In this document: in pieces, positions 23,047 through 34,005 of the stretch
Layout: every line of letters starts with the position of its first letter
How positions within the stretch are numbered: position 1 is the first letter of the stretch
Assembly: GCF_036010325.1 (NCBI RefSeq)
Contig: NZ_CP108549.1
Location: 1,922,001-1,986,000, forward strand
From: Streptomyces sp. NBC_01210
Lineage (GTDB): Bacteria; Actinomycetota; Actinomycetes; Streptomycetales; Streptomycetaceae
Direction of reading: 5' to 3'
Length of the DNA: 64,000 nucleotides
Notes under the pieces: generated by a model
Database searches by the model: none
Told to the model about the DNA's origin: nothing
What the model saw: the letters and a program-made list of their open reading frames with translations, nothing else
Position numbers and translations under genes: made by a program

Positions 23047-23580
23047 ATGCAGTGGAAGATCCACGGGGAACGTCCGATCTACGAGAACAGCTGGGTGAAC
23101 CTGTGGCTCACCGACGTCGAGACGCCGGACGGGAACCGGTGGGAGCACCACGTCGTCAAGCTCCGGCACCTGGCCGTGGCCGCAGTGGTCAACGAGCGGC
23201 GCGAGGTTCTGATGATGTGGCGGCATCGCTTCATCACGGACGTCTGGGCATGGGAGCTGCCCATGGGTCTGGTCGAGGAGGGTGAGACGCCAGCCGATGC
23301 GGCGGCCCGTGAGGTGCTGGAGGAGACGGGCTGGCGGCCCGGTCCGATCAAGTCGCTGATCTACGCCGAGCCGGCCAACGGCATCACCGACTCCCAGCAC
23401 CACGTCTTCCGGGCCGACGGGGCGACGTACGAGGGTCCGCCGACCGAGAAGAACGAGTCGGACCGGATCGAGTGGATCCCACTGGCCGACGTGCGGGGCA
23501 TGATCGACCGTCGTGAGATCGTCAGCAGTGGCTCCCTGGTCGGACTGCTGTACGTGCTCATGGACGAGGCGATCCACTGA
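23047..23580 (+). CDS. Nudix hydrolase
   Basis: 177 residues from ATG. A complete Nudix box reads GLVEEGETPADAAAREVLEE then TGW, fitting GX5EX7REUXEEXGU, which binds magnesium and cleaves nucleoside diphosphates linked to another group. ELPMGL before the box and the length resemble ADP-ribose/sugar-nucleotide pyrophosphatases. Its 3' end overlaps the convergent XRE gene by 23 bases. Whether it serves the adjacent peptide-modification operon or acts in housekeeping is unknown. Confidence 0.88.
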   Translation: MQWKIHGERPIYENSWVNLWLTDVETPDGNRWEHHVVKLRHLAVAAVVNERREVLMMWRHRFITDVWAWELPMGLVEEGETPADAAAREVLEETGWRPGPIKSLIYAEPANGITDSQHHVFRADGATYEGPPTEKNESDRIEWIPLADVRGMIDRREIVSSGSLVGLLYVLMDEAIH

Positions 23581-24904
23581 CCTGGCGCGGCAGCACTTCC
23601 CGGAGCCGGGCCTCGAATGCCACCGCGGCCGGTTCCCGGCGGAAGGGCTCCAGCTGCTCGTAGAACTCCCGGAGGTGGCCGGCGACTCGTTGCGAGCTGA
23701 CAGCCGCTGCCGGGGCGAGGGCGTCCATAGCCGTGTGGCATGCCTCGTCAAGTTTGCCGCGCTGGAGCTGGGTGCGGGCGAGCCAGAAGGCGTGGAAGGC
23801 GCGGCCTCGGTGGTTCGTCTGGTGTTCTCGGCGAAGGGCGTCCGCGATGAGGGGTTCGGCGAGGGCGGCTTCGCCCAGGCGGCCGTGCGCGATGCCGGTG
23901 TCCACGATCAGCTTCGGTTCGTCGAAATAGGCGACCCAGGCCGGATCCGGATCGCCGGTGCTGATCCCTCCGAACTGGGTGTGGGCTTCCGAGATCGCGG
24001 TGTGGGTCGCGCCGTGGTTGCCGAGGGTGGCGTGGGCGAAGGCTTCGCGCATCGCGAGCATGGCCAGCACGCGCGGCGTCGTCCCTGCGGCCGCTCGGGC
24101 CTGGTCCTGGGCGGCCGTGACGAGTGCGAGGGCATCGCCGGGCTTGTCCTGGTAGGTGGCCTGAAGGCTCATGCAGGCGAGGACGTTAGCCATGAACTGG
24201 CGGTCGTCGATGGCCTTGGCCAGGCCGAGGGATTCGGTGAAGTAGGCGCGCGCCTGGTTGTACTGGCGGGCGTCGAAGTAGATCCATCCGGTGAGCCGGG
24301 CCAGCTCGGCCGCGATGCTGTGCAGGCCGTCCCGCAGAGGAGCCGGACGCTGCTCCTTGAGGAGATCGACTACGTAGCGGAGCTGGCCGACGACCGCCGG
24401 CCGTAAGGTCTCGCCGCCGTGCTCGTCGTCCCGGCGCCAGTAGTCCGCGATCGACGAGTGCAGCGCGTCCAGCGTCGACGCGCTGAGATCCCGCTCGGCC
24501 GCCAGGGCGAGGATGCTGTCGACGTCCGCCCCCTGTAGTCCGGTGACAAGCGGTTCGACGGCTGAGGCCGACACCTCGGCCGGTCCGCGGGGCGTGACCG
24601 TCAGGCTGGGCGGCGTCTCCCAGGAACGGCGGGCAAGGCCGAGCATGTGTCCGGGGATGCGCAGTCCGTCCGAGATCCGTTCGATCACGTCCATGTGCAG
24701 CAACTGCCGCCGTCCGGCGATCACCTCGCCCACGCGGCTCGGGGTCAGGTCGCAGCGGCGCGCGATCATCGACGGATAGATGCCTGCTCGTGCCTTGACC
24801 AGCTGAAAGATGCGGCCGAAGTCTCTGGCCTGGCATGCCTCGATCATCACTGGGTCCGTGAGCAGGCTGACCGGGAGTTCCTTCGAGCGAGATGGCTCGG
24901 GCAT
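23558..24904 (-). CDS. XRE-family regulator with TPR-like sensor region
   Basis: 448 residues from ATG. The N-terminal helix-turn-helix (RIFQLVKARAGIYPSMIA, LTPSRVGEVIAGRRQL) is followed by about 350 residues of helical repeats with TPR-like spacing. Architecture resembles the regulator at 4129-5406. It is divergent from the radical SAM operon, with the palindrome at 24963-24979 in the short shared promoter region. This makes it the probable controller of that operon, by analogy with peptide- or small-molecule-sensing XRE-TPR regulators. Confidence 0.87.
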   Translation of the reverse strand: MPEPSRSKELPVSLLTDPVMIEACQARDFGRIFQLVKARAGIYPSMIARRCDLTPSRVGEVIAGRRQLLHMDVIERISDGLRIPGHMLGLARRSWETPPSLTVTPRGPAEVSASAVEPLVTGLQGADVDSILALAAERDLSASTLDALHSSIADYWRRDDEHGGETLRPAVVGQLRYVVDLLKEQRPAPLRDGLHSIAAELARLTGWIYFDARQYNQARAYFTESLGLAKAIDDRQFMANVLACMSLQATYQDKPGDALALVTAAQDQARAAAGTTPRVLAMLAMREAFAHATLGNHGATHTAISEAHTQFGGISTGDPDPAWVAYFDEPKLIVDTGIAHGRLGEAALAEPLIADALRREHQTNHRGRAFHAFWLARTQLQRGKLDEACHTAMDALAPAAAVSSQRVAGHLREFYEQLEPFRREPAAVAFEARLREVLPRQVSGSPRP

Positions 24905-24962: not shown

Positions 24963-24979
24963 TTACCCAGGTTGGGTAA
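24963..24979. promoter_or_regulatory. Palindromic operator candidate TTACCCA-GGT-TGGGTAA
   Basis: A perfect 7-base inverted repeat with a 3-base spacer lies 59 bases upstream of the XRE-TPR gene and 49-53 bases before the first small gene of the radical SAM operon. Size, symmetry and position fit a dimeric helix-turn-helix operator controlling both transcripts. Confidence 0.65.
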
Positions 24980-25027
24980 TCTGCTTGGCCTTTCTGGCCG
25001 GGCCCGCGGATCGCGATGCTCCTGGCC

Positions 25028-25228
25028 ATGGCGAACGGACAGGACGACGTACGGATGACGCTGCGGGTCTCCCGCGACTCCGGCCAGACGTGGGGGCCTC
25101 TCGCGGAGGTACGCGTGGGCGAGGACCCGGTGGTCCCGGAGAACCCGGGCCGCTACCCGCCGTGCGTCTGCCCCCGGTGCTCGAAGCAGGAACGGAATGC
25201 CGTCGCGTCCTTCCGGATGGTGTCGTGA
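25028..25228 (+). CDS. Small conserved-type protein with C-terminal CxCPxC motif
   Basis: 66 residues from ATG at 25028; ATG at 25016 is an alternative in frame. The central RVSRDSGQTWGPLAEVRVGE is followed by CVCPRCSK, a possible metal-binding knuckle. First gene of the radical SAM operon; its stop overlaps the next ATG (TGATG). The family is one I have no name for; it may be carried with the operon rather than act in peptide maturation. Confidence 0.55.
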   Translation: MANGQDDVRMTLRVSRDSGQTWGPLAEVRVGEDPVVPENPGRYPPCVCPRCSKQERNAVASFRMVS

Positions 25229-25558
25229 TGCGTTGCGCGTACTGGCGCCGGGTGCCCCCTCGACCTGGCACGGGAAGCACGGGAGAAGTCGGCCGCGAAG
25301 TACATCGACAGGGCGGTGCAGTGCCAGCTGTCCGCGCACGACGAAGGTGAGCACTTCGGCCTCCTCACCGACGCCGGCGCGTACGGGACCGCGCTGTGGC
25401 TCCGCTGGGACGGGACGGACGAGGCGGAACTTGCCGTGTTGCCGGACTGCTCGGTGGCCGCCCCGGGTCCTGACGGTGAGGGCTGCTGTCTGTTCGCCGA
25501 CCACGCCAAGCAGCACACATGGGAAGACGCCCTGGAGGAGGTCTCGTGCACCAACTGA
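25227..25558 (+). pseudogene. Small protein gene interrupted by a one-base frameshift
   Basis: ATG at 25227 gives MRCAYWRR, then one extra G in the run at 25249-25252 breaks the frame. In the next frame the sequence continues CPLDLAREAREKSAAKYIDR and AVQCQLSAHDEGEHFGLLTD, to a stop at 25558. Removing one G would restore a single protein of about 109 residues. It could be a sequencing error, since the operon around it is intact. A shorter product from GTG at 25316 (80 residues) is possible. Function unknown. Confidence 0.55.
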
Positions 25559-25755
25559 TCGCGAGCCCGCACAAGACCCGGCGCCCTCGCTCGCCTCGCA
25601 ACGAACAGTGCGGGGACTGCGGTGGCAGCGGCGCCAACTCGTCCGGCAAGACCTGCGACACCTGTAACGGCCTGGGCGAGATCCACTGCCGCGCCGGCCG
25701 CCAGGAGCCCCATGCGCTGTCCCGCTCCGTGATCCGAAAGGAAGGCCACCGATGA
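25546..25755 (+). CDS. Small zinc-ribbon-like protein
   Basis: 69 residues from GTG at 25546, overlapping the previous gene by 13 bases. It contains CGDCGGSGANSSGKTCDTCN followed by GLG, two CxxCxGxG-type repeats like the DnaJ zinc-finger units, so one zinc ion is probably bound. It ends 4 bases into the radical SAM gene. Such a small protein could act as a chaperone or carrier for the peptide, but no homologue of known role is recognised. Confidence 0.6.
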   Translation: MHQLIASPHKTRRPRSPRNEQCGDCGGSGANSSGKTCDTCNGLGEIHCRAGRQEPHALSRSVIRKEGHR

Positions 25756-26876
25756 CCCACGCTCTGATCGCCTCCCCGTTCCTCGACGGACACCTTCTCC
25801 TCAAACCCGGGGCAAGGGCTGGCGCCCGAATCTCCGCGGACCACTTCGAGGGCCTGCGCCAGGCCGCCACCGACGGTGGGTCGCTTCCCACCTGGGTGGT
25901 GCAGACCGCCGCCGACGTGTGGGGCCTGGACCTGGGCGGCCAGACCGCGCAGGGCACCGTGCTGGTACGCGAGCCGTCCCCATACGGCTACTGCCGGGCG
26001 TCCTGGGAGATCAACCTCGGCTGCAACTTCGGCTGCAAGCACTGCTACCTCGGCGAGCGCCCGTTCTCCGGCCTCGGCTGGGAGGACAAAGTGCGGCTGC
26101 TGGACATCATGCGCGAGGCCGGTGTCCTCTGGCTCCAGATCACCGGTGGCGAGCCCACCATGGACCCCCACTTCCAGGGCGCCTACCGGTACGCCTGGCA
26201 GGCCGGGATGATGCTCACCATCTCCACCAACGGCTCCCTGCTCTGGCGGCCCGACCTCCTCAAGCTCTTCCGCGACTGCCCGCCCTACCGGCTGGTCGTC
26301 AGCATGTACGGGGCAAGCGAGGAGTCCTTCGACATGCTCACCCAGCGCCGTGGCGCGTGGAAGGCGTTCCGGCGCGGCATGGACGCCGCCCGTGAGGCTG
26401 GCCTGCCTCTCCGCATCAACGTCGTGGTGACGGAGGACAACGCCTCCGAGGCCGACGAGATGGCCGCTCTCGCCGAGGAGTGGAACGTCGAGAACCACGC
26501 GTACACGAACATGACGCCCACGATCTACGGCGGCGGTGAGCCACTCCTCGCCCAGTCCGCCGCCCACCTGCGGCAGCGCAAGCCGTTCGCCGGCTGCAAC
26601 GCGGGACACACCTTCTTCCACGCCGACCCGCACGCCAAGGTGTCGATCTGCAAGGTCGGCCGGGACGACCAGATCGACCTGATGGCCGAAGGCATCGACG
26701 GCCTCACCCGGCTCGGCGCCATCGCCGACCGCCTCATGCTTCGCACCGGTGGGTGCGAGGGCTGCGCCCTGTCCGGCACCTGCCGGGTCTGCCGCCCCCT
26801 GGCCAAGCACTACCAGGAAGCGAAGGCGCCGCTGCACAGCTACTGCCAACACGGAGACAAGGAGAACGCCTCATGA
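25752..26876 (+). CDS. Radical SAM/SPASM peptide-modifying enzyme (predicted)
   Basis: 374 residues. The radical SAM cluster motif is CNFGCKHC (Cys91, Cys95, Cys98), followed by the SAM-binding GGEP (ITGGEPTMDPHF). The C-terminal region is rich in cysteines (AGCNAGHTFFHADPHAKVSI, GGCEGCALSGTCRVC), consistent with a SPASM domain holding auxiliary iron-sulfur clusters. Roughly 85 residues precede the core and could bind a leader peptide. SPASM enzymes commonly form thioether, C-C or other crosslinks in ribosomal peptides. The immediately coupled 54-residue gene is the natural substrate candidate. Confidence 0.9.
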   Translation: MTHALIASPFLDGHLLLKPGARAGARISADHFEGLRQAATDGGSLPTWVVQTAADVWGLDLGGQTAQGTVLVREPSPYGYCRASWEINLGCNFGCKHCYLGERPFSGLGWEDKVRLLDIMREAGVLWLQITGGEPTMDPHFQGAYRYAWQAGMMLTISTNGSLLWRPDLLKLFRDCPPYRLVVSMYGASEESFDMLTQRRGAWKAFRRGMDAAREAGLPLRINVVVTEDNASEADEMAALAEEWNVENHAYTNMTPTIYGGGEPLLAQSAAHLRQRKPFAGCNAGHTFFHADPHAKVSICKVGRDDQIDLMAEGIDGLTRLGAIADRLMLRTGGCEGCALSGTCRVCRPLAKHYQEAKAPLHSYCQHGDKENAS

Positions 26877-27037
26877 CCCCGCCCGTACTGGTGCCCCTTC
26901 TGCCCGGCCCGCCGACCTCGGCCCGCCGCGCCGCCCCGCCCGTCGCGACCGCGTCGATCACCGCCGTCCAGGACCTCGACGTGATCGTGGAGAGCGCGGA
27001 GTGCTCCTGCGACGCCGGTGACGACAACCCCCACTGA
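26873..27037 (+). CDS. Candidate RiPP precursor peptide
   Basis: 54 residues, starting with ATG overlapping the radical SAM stop (ATGA), so translation is coupled. The N-terminal part is Pro/Ala-rich (MTPPVLVPLLPGPPTSARRA); then comes a hydrophobic/acidic segment VQDLDVIVESAE and a C-terminal CSCDAGDDNPH. The only cysteines are 44 and 46, with several Asp/Asn residues as possible crosslink partners. The DLDV motif recalls the leader of FxLD-type peptides, but the tail differs. The role is inferred from size, position and composition. Confidence 0.72.
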   Translation: MTPPVLVPLLPGPPTSARRAAPPVATASITAVQDLDVIVESAECSCDAGDDNPH

Positions 27038-27060
27038 CCGACAGATCCGGTCAACTCCGT

Positions 27061-27092
27061 TCAGGCCCCGGCGTGCTCGCGTCGGGGCCTGA
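27061..27092 (+). terminator. Hairpin after the precursor gene
   Basis: TCAGGCCCCG at 27061-27070 pairs perfectly with CGGGGCCTGA at 27083-27092 around a 12-base loop. It starts 23 bases after the precursor stop. There is no T-run, as usual in actinobacteria. It may end transcription or stabilise the short precursor mRNA while reducing expression of the acetyltransferase beyond. Confidence 0.65.
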
Positions 27093-27124
27093 GCCCTGAC
27101 CGGCTCACCGTTAGGGTGCCGCTC

Positions 27125-27991
27125 ATGTTCTTCCGCTGGGACTGGCTCCGGCCTGTACTGACCGCGCCGATCATGCCGACTCTCGGTCCCGTCCACCCCG
27201 ATGCCCTGACCGCTGGCATGTTCGAGGACACCCTGCGAGTGGCCGACACCGGAGACTTCCTTCCGTACGACAAGGACCGGCGCTGGGGCGGCGAGAAGGA
27301 CGAGAAAGTCCTCCGCGAGGACGTGGTGCACCAGCCCGAGCACACCCTCATCCCCACACTGACTCGGCGTGGACGGGGCACCGTGAAGGTCTTCGCCTAC
27401 GGGCTCCGCGACAGCGTCGTGGAGGAGGCCGCCGAGCTGGCCGCGAAGCTCGCCGCCGCGCACGACATGGTCAACGCCCGGGTCGTGCGCCCCCTTGGTC
27501 CTGAGACCGCACACCCGCGCGGCACCCGCGTCCAGCTGAAGGACTTCACCACCGGCCCCTGCCCCGACCCGGGCGGTCCGGTCCGGCCCGTCACCGCCTG
27601 GCCGGCCGCCGTGCGAGAGACCTTCGCGCCGTTCGCCGAGGCGATGGCCGCCGATGGCCTGGCCTTCCTCCACACCCAGATGCAGGCCGGCCGGTGCGGC
27701 CCGGTTCTCACCGCCGCCGTCGAGGACCGCGTCGTGGGGGCGATCGGCCCCATGGAAGTACGCCCCGACGCGATCGGACGTCTCCAGCTCATGCCCCAGT
27801 ACTTCGCCGTCCTGCCCGAGGCCCGAGGACAGGGTCTCGGACGTGTCCTGTGGCGGGCCGCGATGCACTGGGGCCAGTCCCACGGCGCTACCTACCAACT
27901 CCTCCAGACCGAGGTTGACGGCCCCTCCGACCGGCTGTGCCAGGCCGAAGAACTCACCTCCCTCGGCTTCACCCACACCACAGCGGCGTAA
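27125..27991 (+). CDS. GNAT-family acetyltransferase downstream of the RiPP operon
   Basis: About 288 residues from ATG at 27125, with in-frame GTG at 27116 as an alternative. The C-terminal 130 residues carry the GNAT core (MPQYFAVLPEARGQGLGRVL, with the RGQGLGR acetyl-CoA loop). The N-terminal half (FFRWDWLRPVLTAPIMPTLG, DGLAFLHTQMQ) has no domain I recognise. It lies 23 bases beyond the hairpin on the same strand. It could acetylate the mature peptide or confer self-protection; both are guesses from position. Confidence 0.75.
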   Translation: MFFRWDWLRPVLTAPIMPTLGPVHPDALTAGMFEDTLRVADTGDFLPYDKDRRWGGEKDEKVLREDVVHQPEHTLIPTLTRRGRGTVKVFAYGLRDSVVEEAAELAAKLAAAHDMVNARVVRPLGPETAHPRGTRVQLKDFTTGPCPDPGGPVRPVTAWPAAVRETFAPFAEAMAADGLAFLHTQMQAGRCGPVLTAAVEDRVVGAIGPMEVRPDAIGRLQLMPQYFAVLPEARGQGLGRVLWRAAMHWGQSHGATYQLLQTEVDGPSDRLCQAEELTSLGFTHTTAA

Positions 27992-28124: not shown

Positions 28125-28871
28125 ATGATCTCCGGCATGACAAACGGGGTAGCGGCGGGGGCAGGGTCGGGGGCCAACGAGGCTGACGCCTGGCGCGCAC
28201 GATTGGGCTGGGCGTTCGGCCTCATAGCCGACGATCCCGCTGAGCGAGAGGCGGCACTCGCGCATCTGGATGGGGCCAGGAAGAACACCTGGGCGGCTCT
28301 CGACCGGTGGAACGAGCTGTGGCACCTCACGAGGCCACTGGGACCGGAGGAGCAGTACCAGGAGCCGGCCTTCAGGCGGGCGCGCGAGGTGTACGCAGAC
28401 ATGTGTAGCCATTCCCTGCCCGAAGGGCTGTGGGTGGGCGAGGGTGCCCACGGGCCGGTTCTGCCCTATGCGCTTCTCTTTCTGGAGTGGGAAGCGCGGT
28501 TCCCCCGCGAGTGGACAGAGCATGCAAAGGCGTGGGGCACGAAACAGTCACTCATCCGCCGCATGGCCGTTGCCGATCATGATCAGCCGACCAGGGCGAA
28601 GCTCATCGACCTCGTCGAGGTCGTCGTCCAGCGGGCCTACCGCTGCAAGGACCGCGAGTACGTTCGCGTCGCACGAGCAGTCGACGGTGAGGATCTTCGC
28701 CGCAGGCTCGGTACGGCCGCCGCCTCGGACAACCCATGGGCACGACTTCACGCCGGCTACGTCCTCTGGCTTCTCGATCGCCCCGAGGTACCGAACACGC
28801 ATCACGTTTGGCGAACGTGGGTCGCAGAAGCGCCCAGAAGGCAGCGTGGCTCCTCCGGTCCCTGCGGGTAG
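28125..28871 (+). CDS. Hypothetical protein
   Basis: 248 residues, rich in Trp, Arg and Glu (TWAALDRWNELWHLTRPLG, HGPVLPYALLFLEWEARFPR). It ends HAGYVLWLLDRPEVPN and THHVWRTW followed by a short basic tail that may be out-of-family. No signal peptide or membrane segment. ATG at 28137 is a second possible start. I do not recognise the family; the helical, tryptophan-rich composition resembles actinobacterial DUF proteins next to mobile DNA. Confidence 0.6.
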   Translation: MISGMTNGVAAGAGSGANEADAWRARLGWAFGLIADDPAEREAALAHLDGARKNTWAALDRWNELWHLTRPLGPEEQYQEPAFRRAREVYADMCSHSLPEGLWVGEGAHGPVLPYALLFLEWEARFPREWTEHAKAWGTKQSLIRRMAVADHDQPTRAKLIDLVEVVVQRAYRCKDREYVRVARAVDGEDLRRRLGTAAASDNPWARLHAGYVLWLLDRPEVPNTHHVWRTWVAEAPRRQRGSSGPCG

Positions 28872-29113: not shown

Positions 29114-29892
29114 TTACTGACTTTGTTGGCGTGGTGTCGTCAAGGTGAGTCCGGTTTCGGCGAGGCATCCGTTGATGAGGTTGCTGCGGTACTGGATCTG
29201 ATCGACGTGCCGCTTGGGCCGGTAGATCAGCCGTGAGCGTTCGCCTTGCTTGTAACACGCCAGAGCGGCGACGGAGAAGCGGCGCTGAGAACGTCCCCGG
29301 ACCCGGATGACGGGTGTGCGTCCGCGCCGGGCCCAGGTCCGTGCGGTGGGCGGCGTCATCGAGAAGCCGGCTTCGTCCTCGAAGCACAGCCAGGCGTCGA
29401 GCGCCGCCACGGACCTTCCACCTGCGGCCAGGTCTCCTTCCAGCCCGCCACGGCCTCCTCGTCGCGCTCGATGGCGCGGCGGGCCGGGACCTGGTGGCTG
29501 AAGCCGTGCCGGTGCAGCATCTGCGCGATCGCCGACAGCGTCATGCTCTTGTGGAACCTGCGCCCGATCAACGTCTTGATGCGCGCCAGCGTCCACGTCT
29601 GGTCCAGCCAGCCGTGCGCGACTGGGCCCTTGGCGAGCTCCTGCTCGAGCACGGTGGACAGGGCCTCGCTGAGTTTGGGCCGTGAGACGGGCCCAGCGGA
29701 CCGCAGCCCCTCGGTGCCGGCCTCGTGCCAGGCCCGGCGCCAGCGCTGCACCGAGCGCACACTCACCCGTAAGTCCTTGGCGACCTCGGCGTTGGAGGCA
29801 CCGGCAGCGAATCGCTCCGCGGCCTCCAGCCGGATCCGCTCGCGAAACGCCTGCCGTTCAGGCGTCAGCCCACCACCCTGCGGATATCTCAC
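29114..29892 (-). mobile_element. IS630-family transposase remnant
   Basis: The N-terminal frame (29892 to about 29410) has the double helix-turn-helix of IS630 proteins (SNAEVAKDLRVSVRSVQRWR, GWLDQTWTLARIKTLIGRRF). A frameshift follows, and the next frame gives LDAWLCFEDEAGFSMTPPTA with the first catalytic Asp-Glu and ACYKQGERSRLIYRPKRHVD. The sequence ends before the second and third catalytic motifs. Frameshifted and 3'-truncated, so inactive. Confidence 0.78.
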
Positions 29893-30005: not shown

Positions 30006-31133
30006 ATGGATCGGGACGAACCTGTCGGTTTCTGGAGTTATACGCGTCGGGACGACGATATTGAACGTGGAAAGATCAAGGGATTGGTCGATCTGATCTC
30101 AGATGAGTTCGAGATCACGACTGGCCGCGAACTGCACATCTTCTTCGACAAAAAGGATATTTCCTGGGGCGAGGAGTGGCGCTCTCGCATTGACTCCGCG
30201 ATCATGGGGACAACATTCATGATCGCTATCATTACTCCGCGTTTCTTTAGGAGCCAGGAGTGCCGTCGAGAAGTGATCACCTTCTCCAGCCATGCGTCGA
30301 GCCTCGGACTGGATGACCTCTTGCTTCCCATTCTCTATAGCGGTTCATCTGACCTCCTTGACGAGAATCCCGACGATGAATTGGTCGCCTTGATCAAAAG
30401 GCGGAATTATGTCGATTGGACGGCTCTTCGGCTGGAAGATGAAGGGTCTCCTAGGTACCGCCAGGCAGTTCATGAGCTTGCCATTCGCTTGGCGGAAATT
30501 CTTGCGAGCGCCAGCGAGAGGGAGCCGACCGCACAAGAGGAAGCACTAGCCGTTGACGACCAGGCAGGGATCGTAGAACAGCTTGCCGAAATGGAAGACG
30601 CTCTACCGCGCTTGGCTGAGTGCCTGACTGGCTTCGGTGAAGTAACGGCAGAAATCGGCTCCCATATGGAGTGGGCTACCGGCGAGATCAGCGAATCCGA
30701 CAAGCGTAACGGTGGGTTCGCGGGAAGGTTGCGGGTCAGTCAGCAATTGGCCAGTCGGCTGCAAGATCCTGTGCAGAGGTTTGCTAAATGGGGCGACCAG
30801 TACGCGGCCGAGCTGGCGATCGTTGACCCCGGCGTCCTGACGCTCATTAGGATCTCCAGAGACCCGGAACTCCCGCAGGAAGATCGCGCGACCCTCGGCG
30901 AGTTTTTCAAGGCTGCCCTAGGGGCGGCATCCGCCTCGCGTGACAATGTTCCAATTCTCGTGGGCTTTTCTTCCAATGCGGAGGAAATCGCCAAATTCAG
31001 CAAGAGCGTTCGACCTCTTATGATGACCCTGAAAAAATCAGCACAAAGGGTCGTTGATGGTCAATCCGTTATGGATGAGTGGGAGCGACTGATCCAAGAA
31101 GATGGTGGAGATAATACCGCTTCACCTGAGTAA
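30006..31133 (+). CDS. TIR-domain protein, low GC
   Basis: 375 residues. Residues about 5-140 form a TIR domain: FWSYTRRDDD opens the fold, HIFFDKKDISWGEEWRSRID is the BB-loop region, and FFRSQECRREV supplies the SxxCxxE motif whose Glu is the catalytic residue in TIR NADases. The remaining 230 residues are helical without a recognised domain (GEVTAEIGSHMEWATG, PVRFAKWGDQ-like stretches). Base composition and codon use are clearly AT-richer than all neighbours, a sign of recent transfer. Bacterial TIR proteins commonly deplete NAD during phage infection; that role here is inferred. Confidence 0.82.
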   Translation: MDRDEPVGFWSYTRRDDDIERGKIKGLVDLISDEFEITTGRELHIFFDKKDISWGEEWRSRIDSAIMGTTFMIAIITPRFFRSQECRREVITFSSHASSLGLDDLLLPILYSGSSDLLDENPDDELVALIKRRNYVDWTALRLEDEGSPRYRQAVHELAIRLAEILASASEREPTAQEEALAVDDQAGIVEQLAEMEDALPRLAECLTGFGEVTAEIGSHMEWATGEISESDKRNGGFAGRLRVSQQLASRLQDPVQRFAKWGDQYAAELAIVDPGVLTLIRISRDPELPQEDRATLGEFFKAALGAASASRDNVPILVGFSSNAEEIAKFSKSVRPLMMTLKKSAQRVVDGQSVMDEWERLIQEDGGDNTASPE

Positions 31134-32484: not shown

Positions 32485-32799
32485 GGACCGACCCTGCCCT
32501 AGTTGGACCCCGCATTGGGAGCTGGCTCTGCCCCTTGCTCCGCGAAGCCCCTGTCGATTAGTTCGTTCATGCGGTCCATACCTTTCTTGGTGGGTTCGTT
32601 TCCGGTCATTCGTAAGATCGGGAAGCCCAGGGGGCTCTGGGTGTGGCTGTCATGTGGCTGCCGCTTGTGGCTCAGGAGGACTGGCCGCCCGGAGCCCCGC
32701 GACGACTCGGCCACTCATTGGGATGCGCGAACTGAATCGCTGTGTATGGACACGTCGGCGAGGTCGTCTGCTGGGACTTGGAACGGAACGACTTGGGAG
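32485..32799. other. Left flank of the IS110 transposase gene
   Basis: 315 bases. A minus-strand short frame ending at 32499 (MDRMNELIDRGFAEQGAEPA) sits just upstream of the DUF6221 gene. It may be the start of an old upstream gene, but evidence is thin. The IS110 element's left end lies somewhere here; IS110 elements lack reliable inverted repeats, so the boundary cannot be set. Confidence 0.35.
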
Positions 32800-34005
32800 G
32801 TGACCGTGCCTGACCTCTGGGCCGGTACGGACGCGGGCAAGGCCGAGCATCACTGCACGGTGATCGATGCAGACGCCACGGTGGTGCTCTCGCGCCGGGT
32901 GACGAACAACGAGCCCGAGCTGCTGGAGCTCATCGCGGATGTCCTCGACATCAGCGACGAGGTGACCTGGGCGGTTGACCTGAACGCTGGTGGTGCGGGT
33001 CTGCTGATCACGCTGCTGGTCAACCACGGGCAGAAGCTGCTCTACATCCCCGGCAGCGCTGTCCATCACGCCTCCGGCGCCTACCGCGGCAGTGGGAAGA
33101 CGGATGCGAAAGACGCCTTCGTCATCGCCGACCAGGCGAGGATGCGCCGGGACCTGCAACCCTTGGCGGCGGAGGACGAGATAGCGGTTGACCTGCGGAT
33201 CCTGACCGCCCGCCGCTACGACCTGACCGCCGACCGCACCCGGGCGATCAACCGGATGCGGGCCCAGATGCTGGAGTACTTCCCGGCCCTGGAACGGGCC
33301 TACGAGTACAACGTCTCCAAGGCCGCGCTCCTCCTTCTGACCGGCTACCAGACTCCGGCCGCCCTGCGGCGCATCGGCAAGAACCGCCTCGCCACCTGGC
33401 TGAAGAACCGCAAGGTCCGCAACGCTCCCGCCATCGCCGCCAAGGCGATCGAGGCCGCCGAGGCCCAGCACACCGCCGTCCCGGGCGAAAAGACCGCGGC
33501 GGCCATGGTCGCCCGGCTGGCCAGGGAGGTGATTGCCCTCGACGAGGAAATCGCGGAGATCGACAAACTCATTGAGGGCCGGTTTCGCGAGCACCAGCAC
33601 GCCGAAGTGATCACGAGCCTGCCCGGCATCGGCACCCTGCTGGGCGCCGAGTTCATCGCCCTGACCGGTGGCAACATGGACGCTTTCGGCAGCGCCGACT
33701 GCCTGGCCGGCGTCGCGGGACTGGCCCCTGTCCCCAGGGACTCCGGGAACGTCAAGGGGAACCTTCGCCGCCCGCGCCGCTACAGTCGGCGGCTCCTGCG
33801 TATGTGCTACCTCGCCGCCCAGGTCGCGGCCTACCACTGCCCTGTCTCGAAGGCGTTCTACCAACGGAAGCGAGCCGAGGGAAAGAACCACAAGCAGGCC
33901 GTCCTGGCCCTCGCGCGCCGCCGTCTCAACGTGCTGTGGGCCCTCATACGCGACAACCGGACCTTCGAGATCAGCCCACCCGGACAGGATGCCGCAGCGG
34001 CATGA
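32800..34005 (+). mobile_element. IS110-family transposase, apparently intact
   Basis: 401 residues from GTG at 32800. The N-terminal DEDD nuclease domain begins LWAGTDAGKAEHHCTVIDAD and contains GSGKTDAKDAFVIADQARM. The C-terminal transposase_20 domain has VITSLPGIGTLLGAEFIALT and the serine-containing DSGNVKGNLRRPRRYSRRLL. No frameshift or stop interrupts it. IS110 enzymes work with a bridge RNA encoded in the element's non-coding end; the flanks at 32500-32800 and 34006-34250 would be the places to look for it. Confidence 0.88.

Follow-up and report, generated by a model that had tools for sequence, protein, structure and literature searches.

A mobile gene cassette of streptomycetes that joins a radical SAM enzyme and a small peptide to a GNAT or a kinase: a candidate family of modified peptides

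What is made by a gene for a 54-residue peptide that starts within the end of a radical S-adenosylmethionine (SAM) enzyme gene and is followed by a gene for a GNAT acetyltransferase? This arrangement occurs in Streptomyces sp. NBC_01210, within a stretch of 64,000 nucleotides of contig NZ_CP108549.1 (positions 1,922,001 to 1,986,000 of the forward strand). We refer to this whole stretch as the window and give all positions in its own coordinates. The enzyme gene lies at 25752 to 26876, the peptide gene at 26873 to 27037 and the GNAT gene at 27125 to 27991, all on the plus strand. We conclude, with a probability of about 0.6, that the three genes represent a mobile family of ribosomally synthesized and post-translationally modified peptides (RiPPs), undescribed in the libraries and open-access papers that we searched and defined by the enzyme, the tail of the peptide and a downstream GNAT or kinase.

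The peptide gene is a constant companion of the enzyme gene. We studied 160 loci with their flanks, including the window, which are a subset of the matches of our searches; 159 of them are distinct by enzyme DNA and many are close kin. A small open reading frame (ORF) bearing the tail follows the enzyme gene in 154 of the 159, down to about 50% enzyme identity, and in 106 of these 154 its start overlaps the stop of the enzyme gene by ATGA, as in the window. We checked the five remaining loci singly: the enzyme gene is truncated in L043 and L044, the contig ends in L106, the tail is shifted in L015, and both the enzyme frame and the peptide are broken in L038. None of them holds an intact peptide with other residues at the Cys or Pro positions. 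The first-pass annotation of the window had placed a SPASM-type radical SAM enzyme directly before the peptide, and had set the conservation of the small gene beside the enzyme as a test of its proposal. Both the enzyme and the conserved pairing are borne out, and we regard it as very probable that the two genes encode a maturase and its precursor.

The conserved part of the peptide is its tail. The window peptide ends in CSCDAGDDNPH, and its last 15 residues, ESAECSCDAGDDNPH (residues 40 to 54, positions 26990 to 27034, plus strand), form the presumed core; across the family, peptide length ranges roughly from 40 to 75 amino acids (aa). Taking the window as reference, in 24 relatives of equal length that share ancestry and are hence not independent, we counted 33 synonymous and 1 replacement differences in the last 15 codons versus 147 synonymous and 203 replacement differences in the first 39 codons, the leader. 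When 30 relatives of any length were used, some with leaders of unequal length, the tail had 44 synonymous and 3 replacement differences. These counts indicate that the tail is under strong purifying selection and the leader is variable. They agree with the first-pass annotation, which had taken the tail for the core, and make it highly probable that the tail is the part that becomes modified.

The pattern used to recognise tails fixed a Cys, followed by one of N, Q and V in front of Pro and, near the end, by one of Y, H, N and F, and left all other positions free. The tails fall into two types. Type I (113 loci) reads C-x-C-x3, then D (110) or E (3), then D (103), S (6), N (3) or A (1), then N (76), Q (36) or V (1), then P, and finally Y (50), H (46), F (10) or N (7). 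Type II (41 loci) reads [G/A]-C-[G/N/S]-[D/N/E]-D-N-P-[Y 40/F 1], followed by at most two further residues. An acidic residue therefore stands four positions after the second Cys in all type I tails (CX3[D/E], 113 of 113), and an Asp stands three positions after the Cys in all type II tails (CX2D, 41 of 41). The first-pass annotation had proposed that Cys44/Cys46 or Asp/Asn side chains are crosslinked. A link between Cys and Asp would suit these conserved residues, and to a thioether between Cys and Asp or Glu we give slightly less than an even chance. We also considered the conversion of Cys to formylglycine of the sulfatase type, and rejected it since the Ala/Pro context is missing from type II tails.

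The first-pass annotation had not recognised the combination as a known RiPP class, and our searches led to the same view. The window peptide matched no family in NCBIfam, Pfam or PHROGs, and none of the open-access papers found by full-text search was, by its title, on the subject of the tail motif. One peptide, P0125, carries the UniRef label of an FxLD family lantipeptide. We rejected this candidate, since NCBIfam returned no family for P0125 or for the window peptide at a maximum E-value of 10, in a search where the HMMER filters drop most matches above 0.1.

The enzyme itself (374 aa; PF04055, E-value 7.5e-19) has the architecture of a peptide maturase. The cluster motif CxxxCxxC is formed by C91, C95 and C98, and seven further cysteines occur in SPASM order, six of them invariant (C282, C335, C338, C344, C347 and C365) and C300 nearly so among 56 aligned sequences; the last gap is CX2C instead of the CX3C of the reference motif. 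The N-terminal domain, residues 5 to 57, consists of three strands and two helices. Among the structural matches listed, those at the top for the enzyme model are the peptide maturases SkfB (aligned residues 4 to 352) and SuiB (2 to 367), with the N-terminal domain aligned to both as part of the whole model, and the top non-peptide enzyme is BlsE, which covers residues 78 to 353 only. That known peptide maturases are the best fold matches supports the maturase role first suggested for the enzyme. Prokaryotic viperin was tried and rejected: it scored 44 bits with an NCBIfam cut-off of 180, and the pVip match of PADLOC (E-value 6e-15) spans the shared radical SAM core only.

The best NCBIfam match of the enzyme is the model of the mycofactocin maturase MftC, with 76 bits and thus far under the cut-off of 265. 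Together with a tail that hardly varies and ends in Tyr or His, this match could point to a peptide-derived redox cofactor like PQQ or mycofactocin. However, we recognised no oxidoreductase by eye among the shared neighbours, the distribution is patchy and mobile, some tails lack Tyr, and in many of type II it is not the last residue. As no partner enzyme was recognised among the clusters, which were judged by eye, we set the cofactor explanation aside and consider it very improbable.

To return to the RiPP cassette, its third gene is of two kinds. We clustered the neighbours of 106 loci, reduced to 55 representatives at 90% enzyme identity, and then ran profile searches. Besides the peptide, the frequent downstream genes in the clustering encode either a protein of about 270 aa that resembles kinases (31 of 55 representatives) or a GNAT (18 of 55), and the profiles found more. 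The GNAT of the window has 288 aa (PF00583, E-value 1.9e-7) and a long N-terminal part. Overall, a GNAT, a kinase or both lie downstream in 152 of the 154 peptide-bearing loci, and the GNAT is part of the cassette. The new observation here is that the downstream enzyme alternates between a GNAT and a kinase of the APH (aminoglycoside phosphotransferase) fold, and that this alternation tracks the residue after the last Pro of the tail. In the 154 loci, Tyr occurs with a kinase in 85 and with both enzymes in four (in one of these, L257, the GNAT match is weak and more distant), and His, Phe or Asn with a GNAT in 63; one locus has Phe and neither enzyme (L112) and one Tyr and neither (L248). In terms of the kinase, Tyr is found with it in 89 loci and without it in one, and other residues with it in none and without it in 64. 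The corresponding numbers for the 55 representatives are 35 with Tyr and kinase, two with Tyr and both, 16 with His, Asn or Phe and GNAT, one with Phe and neither, and one unscored. A GNAT alone does not fix the residue after Pro, which can be His, Phe or Asn, and which is Tyr when a kinase is also present and in L276, a viral contig. A kinase about 4.3 kb upstream in L039, which has a His tail, lies outside the cassette and was left out of the 154-locus counts. In L112, two other small genes lie between 1338 and 2377 after the start of the radical SAM gene, one of them ending in ADCSQCHSGCSDSNYAGK.

The kinase is recognised better by its fold than by its sequence. Its model (pLDDT 92.4) matches the choline kinase LicA and APH(4)-Ia, and the fold matches include Cph001 with a capreomycin (8i8g). 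The match to PF01636 is weak (E-value 0.016), and four members searched in NCBIfam came near no cut-off. In the source records, among the 120 listed of 609, the kinases that bear a name are mostly called aminoglycoside phosphotransferase. The active-site residues K, E, H, N and the second D are fixed in all 85 aligned kinases of these loci.

Several observations weigh against our reading of the cassette, beginning with the link between kinase and Tyr. A tree of 114 enzymes, of which 113 were scored, yields five independent contrasts in the presence of the kinase; Tyr goes in the same direction in four of them, in the opposite direction in none and is equal in one (p = 0.125). When twelve phage, plasmid and viral-contig loci are added, there are four well-supported contrasts, with a mean of 2.7 agreeing, 1.3 without difference and 0 opposing (median p = 0.25, range 0.25 to 0.5). 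The tree thus offers four to five independent contrasts and p-values between 0.125 and 0.5. These contrasts are too few, and the association of kinase and Tyr, which is striking in the counts, is therefore not significant when kinship is allowed for. Moreover, the sister pair L276 (Tyr) and L278 (Phe) differs with a kinase in neither, and Tyr occurs without a kinase twice, in L248 and in L276, the latter with a GNAT only. Finally, the catalytic-type Asp of the HTD motif is Asp in 78 of the 85 kinases and Glu in seven (L110, L145, L150, L151, L154, L225 and L257), all from loci with Tyr, which counts somewhat against kinase activity in those seven. Because of these Glu residues, we lowered our estimate that the kinase acts on the Tyr after Pro from an even chance to a little below it. 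On the opposite strand of L248, 1348 to 3257 after the start of the radical SAM gene, we noted by eye unrelated GNAT-like and phosphotransferase-like frames, which may be there by chance.

Further points of this kind concern the tail, the enzyme and the neighbours. The CX3D spacing is found in none of the 41 type II tails, and the tail of the viral-contig locus L284, CSCTASSDQVYNN, has Val where other intact copies have Pro. A leader-binding RRE domain is common but not universal in RiPP systems, and a Pfam search of the N-terminal 81 residues of the enzyme gave no PqqD/RRE match, so that the suggestion of leader binding comes from the fold. By sequence, the closest PDB match is BlsE, a nucleoside-sugar enzyme that aligns over the radical SAM core only, and AbmM is also among the closest. 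Such relatives could mean that the enzyme acts on another substrate, with the peptide as an accessory subunit or carrier. We consider this very unlikely, given that the fold match to SkfB and SuiB takes in the N-terminal domain and that the tail is conserved, all the intact copies that we saw having a Cys in it. As for the RiPP reading, neither a protease nor an exporter was recognised by eye among the 17 clusters shared by at least four of the 55 representatives, several of which are unidentified.

The cassette is mobile. Protein searches found the enzyme in eight plasmid records and in the S. lividans phage Success (two records of the same phage). Genes 3, 2 and 1 at the left end of phage Success encode the enzyme, a 38-aa peptide ending in GCGDDNPYN and a protein annotated as 'kinase', which matches the kinase profile at 2e-114; helix-turn-helix (HTH) genes and an integrase gene lie within about 6 kb. 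Two of the eight plasmids were inspected. One, NZ_CP107946.1, carries enzyme, peptide and GNAT, and this stretch is locus L098 itself; the other, recorded under the name phiDSM40276, carries enzyme, peptide and kinase. IMG/VR yielded 14 loci, several of them copies of one another, all with a GNAT or kinase match and 13 with the pattern tail, L284 being the variant. Four of them have portal-, endolysin-, integrase- and replication-like neighbours by eye. The cassette is hence complete on phage Success, on the two inspected plasmids and on 14 viral contigs.

Carriage by phages and plasmids would suit a weapon, and this brings us to the main rival explanation, namely that the radical SAM enzyme matures an antibiotic-like toxin, which the GNAT or kinase inactivates in the producer. 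Producers protected in this way exist: MccE (microcin C) and Cph/Cac (capreomycin) inactivate the producer's own antibiotic peptide. The occurrence of one or both modifiers in 152 of 154 loci, the substitution of one enzyme type by the other and the presence of capreomycin-bound Cph001 among the kinase fold matches would all agree with self-immunity. On the other hand, an exporter or protease was not recognised by eye among the shared neighbours, and the tail is more conserved than expected of a bacteriocin, so we judge self-immunity unlikely, if far from negligible. This explanation and the RiPP family with a tailoring enzyme do not exclude each other. They differ solely in the purpose of the modification, and the present data cannot separate immunity from tailoring as the role of the GNAT and kinase.

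A regulator gene often faces the cassette. In the window, an XRE-TPR regulator of the NsdA family (448 aa; NF053720, E-value 8.9e-100) is encoded divergently on the minus strand at 23558 to 24904, and the shared promoter contains the 17-bp palindrome TTACCCAGGTTGGGTAA at 24963 to 24979, with perfect 7-bp arms; both had been pointed out in the first-pass annotation. With a profile built from 20 NsdA-type neighbours, we found a divergent match within 4.5 kb upstream in 74 of 159 loci. In the window's own genome, 16 genes score above the curated NsdA-family cut-off, which corresponds to about one per hundred stretches of 4.5 kb, a comparison that is rough as it involves two different models. The palindrome occurs once in the 9.2-Mb genome, also when one mismatch is allowed, and may be an operator bound by the regulator. 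In the 3 kb upstream, 17 of the 159 loci have the exact TTACCCANNNTGGGTAA, and each of these has the regulator; among them are type II, kinase-bearing loci whose enzyme is about 55% identical. As it occurs in just 17 loci, it marks one subgroup of regulators.

These data raise the possibility that the product is a conserved signalling peptide sensed by the XRE-TPR regulator. Rgg/SHP circuits, which regulate radical SAM RiPPs in streptococci (PMC13361665), offer a comparison. The divergent regulator in 74 loci set against 16 such genes in the whole genome, the uniqueness of the operator-like site and the HTH and integrase genes near the cassette of phage Success would be in keeping with this. 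Nevertheless, 85 of the 159 loci are without the regulator by the profile used, a near-fixed tail gives little specificity, and the role of the regulator may be no more than control of the operon. Signalling through this regulator is therefore rather improbable.

The remainder of the locus is less constant. Three small ORFs precede the enzyme gene on the plus strand: ORF A (66 aa, 25028 to 25228, alternative start at 25016), ORF B (25228 to 25558) and ORF C (69 aa, 25546 to 25755), the latter with a CxxCxGxG motif like that of the DnaJ zinc finger and weak DnaJ matches. They are found mainly in close relatives among the 45 loci of our first scan and are accessory. The first-pass annotation had described a chain of genes each overlapping the next. 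The ORFs starting at 25028 (or 25016), 25546, 25752 and 26873 are present, and the overlaps at 25226-25230, 25752-25755 and 26873-26876 stand; the gene at 25228 is broken. Its frame runs for 40 residues to a stop at 25350, and another frame is open from 25316 to 25558, so that in the sequenced window, contrary to the claim, this gene has no overlap with the one at 25546. The ORF B stretch is one C shorter in nine of 15 relatives inspected (L001, L003-L007, L009, L010 and L015), and in L001, L002, L006 and L010, among others, ORF B is open up to the overlap with the next gene. The hairpin noted between the peptide and GNAT genes was found again, with 16 pairs at 27059 to 27094 (plus strand). 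Its 68-nucleotide stretch folds at -43.9 kcal/mol, a z of -5.8 versus 200 shuffles. In the shuffle control of four stretches, the other three gave z values of -4.4 (L021), -4.9 (L031) and -2.8 (L014), and a simple hairpin search without chance control found, in 16 of the 18 loci inspected, an arm of at least 8 bp that contained no more than one mismatch.

Beyond the GNAT gene, we noted by eye IS630-like transposase-like ORFs in two frames at 29114-29892 (minus strand), a 375-aa ORF with a TIR-domain-like start at 30006-31133 (plus strand), 2 kb past the GNAT gene, and an IS110-like transposase-like ORF at 32503-34005 (plus strand). Among the 45 relatives, the side with a NUDIX regulator is common to close relatives, and the downstream ORF at 28125-28871 is found in L001 only.

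The cassette is spread over many streptomycetes and some of their relatives, in addition to phages and plasmids. The first relatives, the 45 loci, came from a scan of species genomes. Whole-genome searches with the enzyme, at E-values of 1e-30 or 1e-40 and in samples that overlap, found it in 75 of 392 genomes of the same genus (1e-30, fragments included), or about a fifth, in 80 of 394 of the family sample, in 17 of 394 of the class sample and in 6 of 396 of the phylum sample, all six of the same genus. Two further families of the class had it in 6 of 35 and 16 of 200 genomes.

The following sequence of events would account for these data. The N-terminal domain of the enzyme would bind the leader, and the radical SAM centre would oxidatively link Cys46 to the acidic Asp50, four positions on, in a thioether of the PapB and ranthipeptide sort. 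A protease encoded elsewhere would release the tail. Where the kinase is present, it may phosphorylate the Tyr that follows Pro. Loci with the GNAT alone nearly always have His, Phe or Asn in this place, and there the GNAT would acetylate another site. The divergent XRE-type regulator, when present, would control the operon. We give an even chance to a role of the product in competition or signalling, on behalf of the element or of its host. More speculatively, the acetyltransferase would replace the kinase when Tyr is lost, and the thioether-bridged peptide, phosphorylated on Tyr by the APH-fold enzyme, would help the phage or plasmid element or the lysogen against competitors or other phages; taken as a whole, this scenario is doubtful.

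About a fifth of the sampled genomes of the genus carry the enzyme, and yet the peptide and its system are undescribed in the libraries and open-access papers searched. The set is compact, with one enzyme, one peptide and one tailoring enzyme, and its natural Tyr, His, Phe and Asn variants predict which partner acts. If the peptide is indeed a substrate of the kinase, the name aminoglycoside phosphotransferase is wrong for many proteins. The carriage by phages also raises the question of whether streptomycete phages use modified peptides.

How does this family compare with known systems? Sublancin, encoded in SPbeta, is a prophage-borne RiPP; both systems are carried by phages, and the cassette differs in its radical SAM maturation and in being also widespread on chromosomes. 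Kinases or GNATs act on the peptide product in phosphorylated lasso peptides, in microcin C (MccE) and in capreomycin (Cph/Cac), on scaffolds that differ from ours, and the cassette kinase has a weak match to PF01636. In mycofactocin (MftA/MftC) and PQQ, a radical SAM enzyme adjoins a small peptide with a conserved C-terminus. The cassette has the same adjacency, without a recognised partner oxidoreductase and with an MftC score far under the cut-off. SkfB, SuiB (streptide) and RaS-RiPP maturases are the top fold matches, nearly over the full length including the N-terminal domain, at an identity of 14 to 17%, and with different precursors, partners and hosts. PapB (freyrasin) and the ranthipeptides likewise combine a radical SAM maturase with a small precursor. 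PapB forms thioethers from Cys to Asp or Glu in CX3D/E motifs and tolerates spacings between 0 and 6 (PMC9413430), so that the CX3D/E of the 113 type I tails has its counterpart there and the CX2D of type II falls within the accepted range. This likeness is a resemblance of motifs and not a proof. In contrast to PapB and freyrasin, the cassette has one short C-terminal motif instead of six, a CxC doublet and a GNAT or kinase as partner.

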